A stretch of 32,350 nucleotides of DNA, taken from positions 1 to 32,350 of the forward strand of contig CALKXD010000254.1 of assembly GCA_938003855.1 (NCBI GenBank). The letters run 5' to 3'. Under the pieces are notes generated by a model, which saw only the letters and a list, made by a program, of their open reading frames with translations, was not told where the DNA came from and ran no database searches. Numbering within the stretch: the stretch's first letter is position 1; each line of letters opens with the position of its first letter. Both the position numbers and the translations under genes were made by a program. This document shows, one piece after another, positions 15,872-21,309 of the stretch. The stretch is from an uncultured Granulosicoccaceae bacterium (GTDB lineage Bacteria > Pseudomonadota > Gammaproteobacteria > Granulosicoccales > Granulosicoccaceae).

Positions 15872-16408
15872 CTAATTGAAACTCAGCTTTTTCTCATCGG
15901 CTTCAGGAGTGAGCTCAAACACCTGCCGCTGGTTTTCACTTTTACGATTCGCCGTAATTTTGAGCGCCCGACTGTCGGATTGACTTCCATACAACCCAAC
16001 GTGAAAACTCAATTCATTTTCTGAGCCGGCCAGTGAAAAACGCCCCATAACGATCACCTGCTTAGCTGGTGCTTTGGGATCGTTATGGGGAGTCACAGGT
16101 GACACCATGATTCCATGCAAAGGCAAATGGCCTTTTTCGGTGCTCAGAGTCACCTGCTCTTTCACTGCACTAATCAGACGGGTTCGATGTCGGGAAAACT
16201 CAGTCAGTGACAACTCGCTGTCATTATTCTCATCGGCGCCTGCAAACGCAGATGCCGGCAACGACAACACCATGTAGACGCTGTCGTCGAGAAAATTCAG
16301 CGTGCCATTCTGAGCCACCATAAGATGCGCATGTGCTGTTGCGATCACACCGGCACTAAGCAGCAGTGCAGTCGCTGCATTGATCACTACCCTGGCAATT
16401 GAAATCAT
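15872..16408 (-). CDS. Secreted protein with one EF-hand calcium loop
   Basis: A 178-residue exported protein. A signal peptide (residues 1-27) ends in ATAHA before HLMVAQNG. A single EF-hand loop with proper ligand spacing runs from D59 to E70 (DENNDSELSLTE: D, N, D, E, S, E at positions 1, 3, 5, 7, 9, 12), so calcium binding in the periplasm is plausible. The rest is predicted beta-rich with no motif I recognise. It lies 14 bases downstream of the YHYH lipoprotein gene on the same strand, so the two are probably expressed together. Function is unknown; the strong conservation-type pattern HLMVAQ.GTLNF.DD.VYMVLSLP looks like a real family rather than a random frame. Confidence 0.8.
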   Translation of the reverse strand: MISIARVVINAATALLLSAGVIATAHAHLMVAQNGTLNFLDDSVYMVLSLPASAFAGADENNDSELSLTEFSRHRTRLISAVKEQVTLSTEKGHLPLHGIMVSPVTPHNDPKAPAKQVIVMGRFSLAGSENELSFHVGLYGSQSDSRALKITANRKSENQRQVFELTPEADEKKLSFN

Positions 16409-16422
16409 GGCTTCCGTCTGTG

Positions 16423-17484
16423 TTATGGTTGAGGCGCGCCATTCGGGGGACCACCGTCTGGAGGACCACCGTCTGGAGGACCGCCATTACCAGCCACAGC
16501 ACCTGTGACACATCGCTGAAAATAAGGGTAGGAATCCGTCGCATAATAATGATAGATACCACCCGGAAATTCAGGGGTTACACCAACCCGGCCGTTGCAC
16601 GCATCAAGATCACCGGATCCATCTACGTACTCCCAATCCTGTGCAAAGGTGCCCAGCGCATAGGTATCAGACGACGGCCTGGAATCCGGTACCGGACTAA
16701 CAAGCTGATAGCTGCCAGTCATACTAACCACCGCTGAACTCGCATCGTCGGCAACACTGTAGCCGTAACGCGCATAGATCGGAAATCCATCAGCAGCCCA
16801 GCCAATCAGTGTCATCGTCGAGCTATTGCCACCCCGCTTGGTGATAAACCCCTCCGGCATACCGTGGTAGTGATAAGCACCACCCGGTTGCACATGAGCA
16901 TTGTTAAAATCGTCGCCAAAATCAAAATGCTCCTGCCCCAGTGCTTCAATATTCCAGCTACCGGAATTATCGACCAGACTACAGGCCTCCCCGCCGTCAC
17001 CACATGAACCCGCGGTGGCAGCGTCAATTTTCACACCGTTCAACACATACCCCTGCGGACCCGCAGGACCACCCAGTGCGGTAATTGTCGACGTACTGGT
17101 CGGTGACAATGAGAATGTTGCTGATACATCAACTTCTGCAATGGTATTGGGATTACCGGCATTAGGGAATTCGCCAACCGCATGATCAGGAATACCGTTG
17201 GCCGTAAGAGTTCGCTCAGTCTCAGAGCAAGTCCATTCGGAGGTGCTGGTCGCCAGTACAGAGGCCGAGTCGTTAAACGTGCTGTCAATATAGTCGCACT
17301 CTACGCCTGCTGTGGACGTGGGCGCTCCGGTATCAGGTGTCTCGTCGTCGGTACCATCTGTGGTGTCTGTGGTGTCTGTGGTGTCTGATACAGTCGTACT
17401 ATCGCTGCCACAGGCGGACAGAGACAACGCCAACAACACACTGCAAAGTGCAGCTGTTGGCCTGTAAAGTTCTTCTGGTTTCAT
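16423..17484 (-). CDS. YHYH domain lipoprotein
   Basis: A 353-residue envelope protein. The signal sequence ends in a lipobox, LSAC, with the lipidated cysteine at residue 25. It is followed by a Thr/Asp-rich linker containing repeated DTT units. The body carries the YHYH family signatures: AYHYHGMPEGF in the middle and GIYHYYATDSYPYFQRC near the end, plus the LIGWAADGFPIY segment. YHYH proteins are histidine-rich, found in outer envelopes of marine and other bacteria; metal binding is assumed but not established. The C terminus is a low-complexity tail of GGPPDG repeats, encoded by 15-base direct repeats near 16448-16477. It is first in a probable two-gene operon with the EF-hand protein. 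Confidence 0.88.
   Translation of the reverse strand: MKPEELYRPTAALCSVLLALSLSACGSDSTTVSDTTDTTDTTDGTDDETPDTGAPTSTAGVECDYIDSTFNDSASVLATSTSEWTCSETERTLTANGIPDHAVGEFPNAGNPNTIAEVDVSATFSLSPTSTSTITALGGPAGPQGYVLNGVKIDAATAGSCGDGGEACSLVDNSGSWNIEALGQEHFDFGDDFNNAHVQPGGAYHYHGMPEGFITKRGGNSSTMTLIGWAADGFPIYARYGYSVADDASSAVVSMTGSYQLVSPVPDSRPSSDTYALGTFAQDWEYVDGSGDLDACNGRVGVTPEFPGGIYHYYATDSYPYFQRCVTGAVAGNGGPPDGGPPDGGPPNGAPQP
17360..17386. repeat. Three tandem 9-base repeats in the YHYH lipoprotein linker
   Basis: GTGGTGTCT occurs three times in direct succession and encodes the repeated D-T-T units of the linker just after the lipidated cysteine. A change in copy number would alter linker length without breaking the frame. 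Confidence 0.75.
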
Positions 17485-17789
17485 AATTAATCTACTGTGG
17501 GTTAAAAATCACGTGACACCCACCGGAAAGTCTTCCCGGCAGTGGCAACAAGCTTGAAAAAGTCTATGAAAAGATCTGAGCCAATCAGAGTTGAAAACCA
17601 GTCTTCGCAAGGCTAATCACTGGATAAGGCTATAAATTCAGCCTTGTTGGCCATTGGTGCTGTGCACCTGGAATATCTATTCAACCACGAATTGGACCAG
17701 AATTGTCTAACTCGGTTTGAGAGCGGATAACCTGACAGCCGCACCAACCGGGTCCGAGGGGCAACAATCGACACCCTGACACACGCATC

Positions 17790-17838
17790 AACAAAGACCC
17801 CTTGGCAATTAACAAAGACCCCTTGGCAATTAACAAAG
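17790..17838. repeat. 21-base direct tandem repeat
   Basis: A 21-base unit starting AACAAAGACCCC occupies 17790-17810 and is repeated without change at 17811-17831. It is followed by the first seven bases of a third copy (17832-17838). Identity of the copies indicates a recent duplication. Confidence 0.8.
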
Positions 17839-17916
17839 CCTGGACAGCGGAGTGCGCATAGCCGACACTGATTTCTCCATAGACCTTTCAGGTTAGCAGA
17901 GGATTGTGTATTTATT

Positions 17917-18054
17917 ATGGAATTACCGGAGGACTGGAAAATTCAAGCACGTATGATTATCGGGCCCCTGCGACTGAAATACGGCGCAGACCGAAGGACG
18001 CTGACAGGTCTGACATCACCCTACCGCCCTCCGGCAGACCATAACAACGCATAA
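17917..18054 (+). CDS. Hypothetical 45-residue small protein
   Basis: An ATG at 17917 opens a 45-codon frame starting MELPEDWKIQARMIIGPL and ending in TAA. AGAGGA at 17898-17903 is a possible ribosome binding site, but the 13-base spacing is long. I recognise no family. The frame may be chance, although the first 27 codons have a believable amino acid mix. Confidence 0.2.
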   Translation: MELPEDWKIQARMIIGPLRLKYGADRRTLTGLTSPYRPPADHNNA

Positions 18055-18418
18055 GGGCTGCGAGACTCTGCTTATTCCAAACGGTGATCTGTCATCTAAA
18101 TATCCACAGTTCAGCAATAGGTTTGGCCAAACTTCGATGTTCCGCAACAGCTCAGCCACCGTGCGGGCTTTTTAAGTAGCGGCTTTTGCAATCGTCGTTA
18201 CGTCGCCAGTCGACCCACCACTAAAAGGCTGAAGTCAACTATTGCAGATAACGACCCGACACCTTGAGGCCGAACAACACCGCACTACCGCTCAAAGGAT
18301 ACAGATCTATCCGGGCAGCCTGCCTCACTCAGGTGTGAGTTGAAAACTATAGCGGTCTGTTTACAGGTTCAGTACAACCACGTTTCTACAGCGATTACTA
18401 AGCCTGACCTTGCGGATA

Positions 18419-18434
18419 GCCTGCCCCGGCAGGC
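18419..18434. repeat. GC-rich perfect palindrome
   Basis: GCCTGCC (18419-18425) and GGCAGGC (18428-18434) are separated by two bases, giving a very stable short hairpin. No T-run follows on either strand. It could be a REP-like element, but only this copy was clearly seen. Confidence 0.45.
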
Positions 18435-18873
18435 GATTCCCGCTGCAAGAAAAACAAACACAGAACACACCCACCCGACACACTGCGCCAGCGCAAAATA
18501 ATTTCAATTGAAAGCGGCTTATCCCATGACGGAATGCAAATTGACACTCTCTCCACCGACCATCACCTGACCCTTTCCGAGCTCTAGACTGTCTGGCTTC
18601 AATTCATAATTCCACACAGATCATATGATGATAACGCTACATCCCCCGGCCATCCTGCAGTCACATAATGCTGCTATGTCATCATCATCTATAACGGTGT
18701 ACACGAAACGACATCACAAATTCATCTTATTAAACACAGAGTCGATATTACCAACAACAACTGCAGGTGCGAGCCTGTAACGTTGCCATCCGACACAACA
18801 AGCAGGCGAGGACTGCAGACAAACTGAAACGCGGACATCGACCATAAGATGTCTTATCATCACCGGAAGCAAA

Positions 18874-21309
18874 ATGCCATTAAACACTCAACACCCCACC
18901 GCCATCAGCATTGATTTTCGGCCCCTGATCTACGCGACGTTACTTTCACTGGTGTTACCTGTCACGGCACAGGCACACGAACTCTGGGAACTGACTGCTG
19001 ATCAGGTACTCAACTGGAACAACAAGGCGAAGACGGAAACCTATTCCGGCCTTAGCTTTGCCACAGCCGTGGTGCTTGTCTGTGCTTTGCTGATCAACCT
19101 TGCATTGGTCCATCTCAATGCCAACGGGGCCGGAGAACGATTCCCGAAACTACGTGCACGGCTCCGATCAATGCGTCCGCTGACATCAGTCGTGTTGCGC
19201 TTCTGCCTCGCATGGGCGCTGCTGTCCAGTGCGCTTGCATTCGACCCTCTATTCGGTGACGGGTTATTCTCTGAACCATCGCTGCTCGCACCAGACATTG
19301 TCATTAGCGACTTGCCCGAACACTGGCAGTGGTTGCTTTGGCTGGAAGTGGTCCTCGGTGTTGCGCTGGCGGCAGGTATATACACCCGGCTGGCAGCCTC
19401 CGCCTGCTTGCTGCTGGTGGGCTGTACCATCTACTCGGCAGGCCTGCTGTCGCTTGTCTATACCCCTTCGTTCATTGGTGTTTCGATTTACCTGCTCGTG
19501 GCTGGCGGGGGCATTTGGTTTGTCCCGTTACCGGCACCCGGTGGCAGCACACGTCTATCTGAAACGCTGATCCGCACTGTCAGTATAAGCCGTGCTCAAT
19601 TTATATTGCGGTTGTTAGTCGGGCTTAACTTTCTCTACATGGCGGTGTATTTCAAGGTGCTACAACCGACCCTGACCCTTGCCATCATAGACGTTCATCA
19701 ATTGCCGGTGATGGGGCTTGATCCTGAATTGTTTGTATTGATTCAGGCTGTGGTTGAAGTAAGCATCGGACTGTTGATAATCTTCGGGGTATTACTGCAA
19801 TTTCTCTCGGTGGCATTCATTGGCGCTTTGGTCTTTTTCGCGATCTGCTTACCAGCGGCTGAAAATCCAGGCTCGCACGTGCTTTACTATGGAGTCGCGC
19901 TGGCATTTCTTTTCAGTGGCAATGGCCGGTTCCGTTTTCAGCAGGCAAAAGACAGCGCAGCGCATATCATAGTGCTTGGTAATGGACTCGCCGCTGTTAC
20001 GGCAATCCGCCGCTTGGAGAAACTGCTGCCTGATCAAACCAATGTAAGGCTCACACTGCTCAGCGATCGAACCGACTATCAGATCTCCGCCATGCTGCCG
20101 GAACTGGTTTCCGGTGCAGTGCCGGCAACTTCAGTTGCGCACCCGTTCATCAAAGTACTGGGGAAAACCCGGCTTCGATTGGGGTCACCGCACAGAATAG
20201 ACTATGCCGCTAAAACAATCTTCTTGGATGACGGCTCTGACCTGACCTACGATCAACTGGTTTTTGCACGACCTGAAACTCCGGAACACCGCATGATACA
20301 GGGCGCCGTGAAGTCCGTTTACCAACTCAACACCGTCGCTGATGCTCTGCAACTGAAGCGCTCAATCCTGCACCAGGCCGCTATCGCTTCCTATGATCCA
20401 ACCCGCTACAAAGGGATAGCCAACTTTGCCATCGTCGGTGGCGGCGAACAAGGGTCAGCGCTGGCTGTCGAAATCTCAGCACTGATTGAAAACCTGAAGG
20501 TTGATCACCTGGTCGGTCGTGACTTCCAACCGAATCTGGTCTTGTTTGAAGATGATGCCGACACTGCACTACTCGATAAAAAACTGATCTCGGCACGTGC
20601 TGATGTGTTTAAAAAGTACGGTGTAAAAACCGCTAACACCAGAGCGATCAGTCGATTAACGGGATCTTCTATTATTCTCAAGAGCGGTGGTAGCATTGAT
20701 ATTGGTACCGTGATTAATCTTCGTTGCCGTAGACCAGAGAACCTACTGCCTCCCCACCCGCACGGCGAACCGCTTTTTGACAACACGCTCAGCATGACCG
20801 GACAAACCGATGTATGGATGGCAACACTGACCGAGCACACAGCAGCAGACGTCGATCAGAGTCAGGACACAATATGGCGCAAACTCCCGACAAGTACCGC
20901 TCAGGCAAAACTCGCAGCGTTTAACGCGTGGTCAAGCAGCCAGCACCTGGCACCATCGAAAATTACCCGAAATCAGCAACGGAGCTACCAGTTCTATATG
21001 GGCCGCCATACCGTGGGTCTATGGCGGGGAATAACTGTACCCGGCTGGCTGGCACGCACCGGCACTCGGATACGATTCCTGAAGCAAATCCCTTCTGTCG
21101 AGCGTAAATTACGTGTGTGCCTGGACTGGATCTTTGGTTTGGTCTTCAGCAACGATCAAACTGTACTGGTCGACGACAACATCAGCAACCTCCAGCCGAA
21201 ACCAAAAAACGGGTACACACCGATTATTGCCTTGAACAGTATTCCGTCTGTCAGTGCCATAAAGAACTGTCCCCCACTGGCACCATTGCGTCACTCTCGC
21301 TATGGATAA
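18874..21309 (+). CDS. DoxX-like membrane domain fused to degenerate NDH-2-like oxidoreductase
   Basis: An 811-residue protein. It begins with a signal-like segment ending TAQA before HELWEL, then about 350 residues with several membrane helices (among them FATAVVLVCALLINLALV, WLEVVLGVALAAGIYT and FILRLLVGLNFLYMAVYF), arranged like DoxX/DoxD-type quinone-interacting membrane proteins. From about residue 364 it resembles type II NADH dehydrogenases and sulfide:quinone reductases: HIIVLGNGLAAV, LLSDRTDYQISAMLPELVSGAVP, DLTYDQLVFARPET and the second dinucleotide fold FAIVGGGEQGSAL (518-530). The C-terminal CLDWIFGLVFSNDQTVLV matches the NDH-2 membrane-docking tail. Departures are the first GxGxxG (GNGLAA), the usual ATG at the end of YD.LV.ATG, and the AGD flavin motif, which is replaced by MATLTEH. 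FAD binding may therefore be altered or lost. GGAAG precedes the ATG. Confidence 0.78.
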   Translation: MPLNTQHPTAISIDFRPLIYATLLSLVLPVTAQAHELWELTADQVLNWNNKAKTETYSGLSFATAVVLVCALLINLALVHLNANGAGERFPKLRARLRSMRPLTSVVLRFCLAWALLSSALAFDPLFGDGLFSEPSLLAPDIVISDLPEHWQWLLWLEVVLGVALAAGIYTRLAASACLLLVGCTIYSAGLLSLVYTPSFIGVSIYLLVAGGGIWFVPLPAPGGSTRLSETLIRTVSISRAQFILRLLVGLNFLYMAVYFKVLQPTLTLAIIDVHQLPVMGLDPELFVLIQAVVEVSIGLLIIFGVLLQFLSVAFIGALVFFAICLPAAENPGSHVLYYGVALAFLFSGNGRFRFQQAKDSAAHIIVLGNGLAAVTAIRRLEKLLPDQTNVRLTLLSDRTDYQISAMLPELVSGAVPATSVAHPFIKVLGKTRLRLGSPHRIDYAAKTIFLDDGSDLTYDQLVFARPETPEHRMIQGAVKSVYQLNTVADALQLKRSILHQAAIASYDPTRYKGIANFAIVGGGEQGSALAVEISALIENLKVDHLVGRDFQPNLVLFEDDADTALLDKKLISARADVFKKYGVKTANTRAISRLTGSSIILKSGGSIDIGTVINLRCRRPENLLPPHPHGEPLFDNTLSMTGQTDVWMATLTEHTAADVDQSQDTIWRKLPTSTAQAKLAAFNAWSSSQHLAPSKITRNQQRSYQFYMGRHTVGLWRGITVPGWLARTGTRIRFLKQIPSVERKLRVCLDWIFGLVFSNDQTVLVDDNISNLQPKPKNGYTPIIALNSIPSVSAIKNCPPLAPLRHSRYG

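Follow-up and report, generated by a model that had tools for sequence, protein, structure and literature searches.

The DoxX family includes the DoxX of the M. tuberculosis DoxX-SseA-SodA complex and the DoxX of bufferin operons, which are four-helix units in single short proteins that carry neither an HExW segment nor an NDH-2 domain. DoxX proteins have been tied elsewhere to envelope oxidative and metal stress in a membrane redox setting (PMC7907618, PMC12452194). Type II NADH dehydrogenases (NDH-2s), such as S. aureus NDH-2, Ndi1, and C. thermarum NDH-2, have a two-Rossmann Pyr_redox_2 fold with a GxGxxG motif on the NADH side and a YD pair. Among 1,762 NDH-2s, the Gly-Asp pair was strictly conserved, E172 (S. 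aureus NDH-2) was conserved in 97%, and the GxGxxA form of the FAD loop, in which the last glycine is alanine, was found in 9%, yeast Ndi1 included (PMC5299459). The signature residues of that set served as our motif yardstick, with S. aureus NDH-2 numbering for E172, G301-D302, W261, and G264. In the literature that we searched, no paper paired DoxX with NDH-2 or DoxX with a haloperoxidase.

The gene described here joins the two domain types in one protein of a marine bacterium. It occupies positions 18874 to 21309 on the forward strand of the window, the whole 32,350-nucleotide stretch of uncultured Granulosicoccaceae DNA that was analysed, and its reading frame starts with ATG and runs to 811 residues with no stop within the frame. 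As the initial annotation had proposed, a DoxX-like membrane region is joined to an NDH-2-like body, with a Pfam match to DoxX (PF07681) at residues 242-323 (E 5.8e-5; 24.1 bits against a curated cut-off of 23.6) and to Pyr_redox_2 at residues 364-622 (E 1.6e-12). The DoxX score lies under the cut-off in two orthologues, G012 (21.4 bits) and G026 (18.7 bits). Thiosulfate:quinone oxidoreductase (DoxDA) was rejected as a candidate, as the window protein had no DoxD (PF04173) match at E<=1; DoxD matches were found only below threshold in the standalone homologues from G179 and G497. Upstream of the gene, the intergenic stretch at 17485-18873 is unusually long (1.4 kb), contains a 21-bp tandem repeat (17790-17838, 2.3 copies), and gave no match in an Rfam search. 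Beyond it, at 15872-17484 on the reverse strand, are a YHYH lipoprotein-like gene and then a 178-residue protein with the motif AHAHLMVAQNG and no Pfam match.

The membrane half begins with a predicted signal peptide (residues 1-34, ending VTAQA; 18874-18975), whose cleavage site was judged by eye and which ends before His35, so that the mature protein would begin with this histidine. An A-H-E sequence stands at the predicted cleavage site in all orthologues and most standalone homologues, with SHE in one. The HELWELT segment that follows (residues 35-41; 18976-18996) is predicted to be periplasmic, and its H35, E36, W38, L40, and T41 are invariant in a 10-protein alignment. That alignment defines a HExW-DoxX unit with the invariant motifs HExWxLT after the signal peptide, P..G, PD, K..QP, and E....H...YG. 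The several helices originally described are present, but they number about nine, lie behind the signal peptide (residues 62-351; 19057-19926), and form two tandem DoxX-like bundles after the first helix. We assigned this topology by hand: a cytoplasmic C terminus after nine helices agrees with the hydropathy and charge profile, and the positive charges fall in the assumed cytoplasmic loops. Twelve of the 15 invariant polar or aromatic residues would lie on the periplasmic side, although on this hand-assigned topology the excess of all invariant residues there (24/179 versus 12/144 elsewhere) is not significant (Fisher p = 0.16). Profile comparison aligned the membrane half to the double DoxX region of intact DoxX-NDH-2 fusions (E 3.4e-5, probability 72%), and a sequence-based search for solved structures found none that matched it.

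The C-terminal half retains the two-Rossmann fold of NDH-2s, its NADH-side GxGxxG, and the YD pair, but differs from them in lacking the Gly-Asp pair, the ATG/WxxG glycines, E172, and AQxA, and in having a nine-helix membrane unit attached. In the first half of the former FAD domain (residues 363-500; 19960-20373), the FAD-side loop does read GNGLAA (369-374) as first described, but it should not be counted on its own as a lost motif given the 9% of NDH-2s with GxGxxA (PMC5299459). This form is shared by G012, and the other two orthologues have GNSIGS and GNSISA, leaving GxGxx(G/A) in two of the four copies. The acid of flavin strand 2 (residue 398 in the window) varies as D, N, H, and R. The usual ATG at the end of this region has indeed gone: ARP replaces AxG at 465-467, and the first AxG glycine, present in intact relatives, is kept by none of the four. 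The YD pair (Y459-D460 in the window) is kept by all of them. In the NAD-type Rossmann domain (residues 517-622; 20422-20739), the second nucleotide fold is preserved as reported, with GGGEQG at 522-527, GxGxxG in 4/4 copies, and an acidic residue ending the next strand in each (E559 in the window). Within the NAD half, these three glycines are the only positions that do not vary in either clade, degenerate or intact.

Three losses had been overlooked in the initial annotation: C618 stands in place of the second ATG/WxxG glycine, A529 in place of catalytic E172, and AQxA is gone. The E172 position is alanine in all four degenerate copies and glutamate in 9/10 intact relatives; one of the eight intact fusions, G029, also has alanine. 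WxxG (W261, G264) corresponds to N615 and C618 in the window, with Asn and a non-glycine residue in 4/4; its tryptophan is already missing from the intact fusion clade. The rest of the former FAD domain (residues 623-700; 20740-20973) carries MATLTEH (649-655) in place of the AGD flavin motif, again in agreement with the original description. There the Gly-Asp pair is T651-L652 in the window and SL, SY, or TH in the orthologues (0/4 kept), the AQxAxQ flavin/quinone motif is missing from all four, and the PPTAQFA region is unrecognisable. A C-terminal tail (residues 701-765; 20974-21168) with YxxYMG...W aligns with the membrane-docking region of NDH-2. At six positions (the first AxG glycine, the WxxG glycine, both residues of the Gly-Asp pair, and the Ala and Gln of AQxA), none of the four orthologues keeps the residue found in at least 9/10 intact relatives; judged from the alignment, these losses are not due to chance. 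New residues are invariant in the degenerate clade (N615, NAW at 684-686 and SQ at 689-690 of a NAWxxSQ motif, and YMG at 708-710), and they fall in the region aligned to the FAD and quinone site.

The fusion and its motif losses are conserved. A single-protein scan of named genomes found no orthologue, but an alignment-based scan of named genomes found three, all full length, in other Granulosicoccaceae genomes (two Granulosicoccus MAGs and one Bugula neritina symbiont) with 42-44% identity. Two of the four genes share a neighbourhood, the window and G012 copies being located elsewhere, and no neighbour gene was common to all four. The degenerate fusion occurs in four of 48 genomes from the family and an intact DoxX-NDH-2 fusion in eight, with no genome having both at the chosen threshold; we rejected mutual exclusion as an explanation of this spread, since by a hand calculation chance would give the same result about half the time. 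In a tree of the C-terminal domains the four degenerate copies form one clade, whose exact placement is unsure because its stem is very long (6.7 changes per column). In the closest pair, G023 and G026, fourfold sites are saturated (72% different), yet identity is still 57% over the C-terminal domain (dN 0.39) and 74% over the membrane half, which indicates that purifying selection acts on the domain. Identities of 33-36% for the C-terminal domain against about 55% for the membrane half likewise show the domain diverging faster. By these sequence comparisons the domain is constrained, yet evolving faster than the membrane half.

Homologues of similar length (717-733 residues) with intact flavin motifs, which the initial annotation had named as a refutation, do exist in the same family, but they count against it only in part: they come from different genomes, have neither the signal peptide nor the HExW segment, and group in a clade of their own. 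These fusions (e.g., G057, 721 residues) share with the window protein a double DoxX-like region and an NDH-2 domain homologous to its own (hhalign E 1e-28 over the C-terminal half). Just upstream of the G057 gene (L043, 6825-9474), and in the same orientation, is a HiPIP gene, whose product is a possible electron-transfer partner of that intact fusion.

Standalone HExW-DoxX proteins resemble the window protein in their signal peptide, HExWxLT, and double DoxX region, with measured identities of about 29-31%, but they lack the NDH-2 domain. They were found in G179 and in Roseobacteraceae (G497, G511, G850, G862, and Phaeobacter plasmids), where the Phaeobacter copy PGA1_RS18540 is annotated as hypothetical. 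In every Roseobacteraceae context that was read, the next gene after the standalone unit encodes an exported protein of about 138-174 residues, with a GHAH motif wherever the sequence was examined. This two-gene module without annotation, its frames overlapping or nearly adjacent, was seen at L056 and L060 (Phaeobacter inhibens plasmids of 239-262 kb), L058, L057, L074, and L075. A GHAH partner gene is also directly downstream of the G012 fusion. A motif scan found no small GHAH gene in the window, and another contig of the same genome contains a GHAH-homologous stretch (E 2.5e-6), near an ABC-2 permease and a 526-residue lipoprotein-like protein without a Pfam match. A vanadium-type haloperoxidase-like gene precedes the standalone unit only in two strains of Phaeobacter inhibens and in the related genomes G511 and G862. 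A general role in a vanadium-haloperoxidase system was rejected, because no haloperoxidase adjoins the unit in G850 or G497 or the window gene, and the haloperoxidase homologues of the window genome are on other contigs. In G179 (L038), the standalone gene adjoins a gene for an FAD-NAD(P)-binding (NAD_binding_9) protein; a di-haem peroxidase-like gene is close by, and the opposite strand encodes a HAD hydrolase with a Tat-like leader.

The absence of E172, of the Gly-Asp pair, and of AQxA speaks against NADH:quinone chemistry, and we infer that the fusion protein has ceased to carry electrons from NADH via FAD to quinone. The shared losses in a domain kept by selection suggest that it has probably been given a new job, perhaps NADH sensing. 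Our best explanation, which we hold tentatively and at short of even confidence, is a repurposed and probably flavin-free NDH-2 fold whose second Rossmann fold binds NAD(H) and tunes a periplasm-facing DoxX-type unit. The membrane unit would act on the periplasmic side through the conserved His35, Glu36, Trp38, Pro140-Asp141, Lys261, Gln264, Glu330, and His335, and the cytoplasmic domain would bind NAD(H) as a regulatory or docking module, which would tune the membrane unit to the redox state of the cell. By analogy with DoxX proteins, an envelope oxidative or metal-stress setting is plausible. A more specific version, a transmembrane redox sensor in which the flavin-free fold would sense cytoplasmic NAD(H) and control a DoxX-type redox or metal site around the mature N-terminal histidine, seems unlikely.

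We infer NAD(H) binding from the three retained glycines and one acid. The main rival is that the fold has lost both cofactor functions and is now a ligand-free cytoplasmic domain that docks or stabilises the membrane unit or a partner, which is possible if somewhat on the unlikely side. Identity between the window protein and G012 is 38% in the NAD half and 44% in the first FAD half; that the NAD half is overall no better conserved counts against NAD(H) binding, and the first half of the former FAD domain and the tail match the NAD half in conservation, in favor of a scaffold. Because E172 touches the nicotinamide of NADH in yeast Ndi1, losing it could make NADH binding weaker as well; the loss favors a scaffold, as do the loss of WxxG and the standalone membrane units that manage without the domain. 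Against a scaffold, the four proteins, diverged as they are and altered in nearly all the rest of the NAD half, still share every GxGxxG glycine and the Glu at the strand end.

That the protein still holds FAD in an altered pocket, as an NADH-dependent reductase with perhaps another acceptor, is a minor and rather doubtful rival. The Gly-Asp pair, both ATG-type glycines, and AQxA are missing from all four copies, two of the four have a GNS loop, and the strand-2 acid is not conserved, even though the window copy and G012 have an Ndi1-like GxGxxA loop (PMC5299459), NDH-2 homology spans some 400 residues, and intact sister fusions exist. AlphaFold runs on four-row alignments were poor (mean pLDDT 41.7 and 50.3); NDH-2 chains were the best fold matches to the weak C-terminal model, and these predictions are too weak to decide between the NAD(H)-binding, scaffold, and FAD readings. 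A decaying domain or an assembly artefact would fit the long stem branch and the faster divergence of the domain, but independent assemblies show the same architecture and losses with no stops, constraint is strong against saturated silent sites, and new positions have become invariant, making this explanation very improbable. The original suggestion of a repurposed rather than dead enzyme is supported by losses common to four species, by their unbroken frames, by residues conserved where silent sites are saturated, and by the new invariant residues that stand in for the old ones.

If a repurposed, NAD(H)-binding fold is the correct reading, a respiratory flavoenzyme fold would have kept its dinucleotide-binding side and given up its flavin in a conserved case, for which the intact sister fusions of the family provide a direct control. 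The DoxX-containing membrane unit, which has no annotation, and its conserved small exported partner may likewise offer a way into the study of the DoxX family, which is poorly understood.
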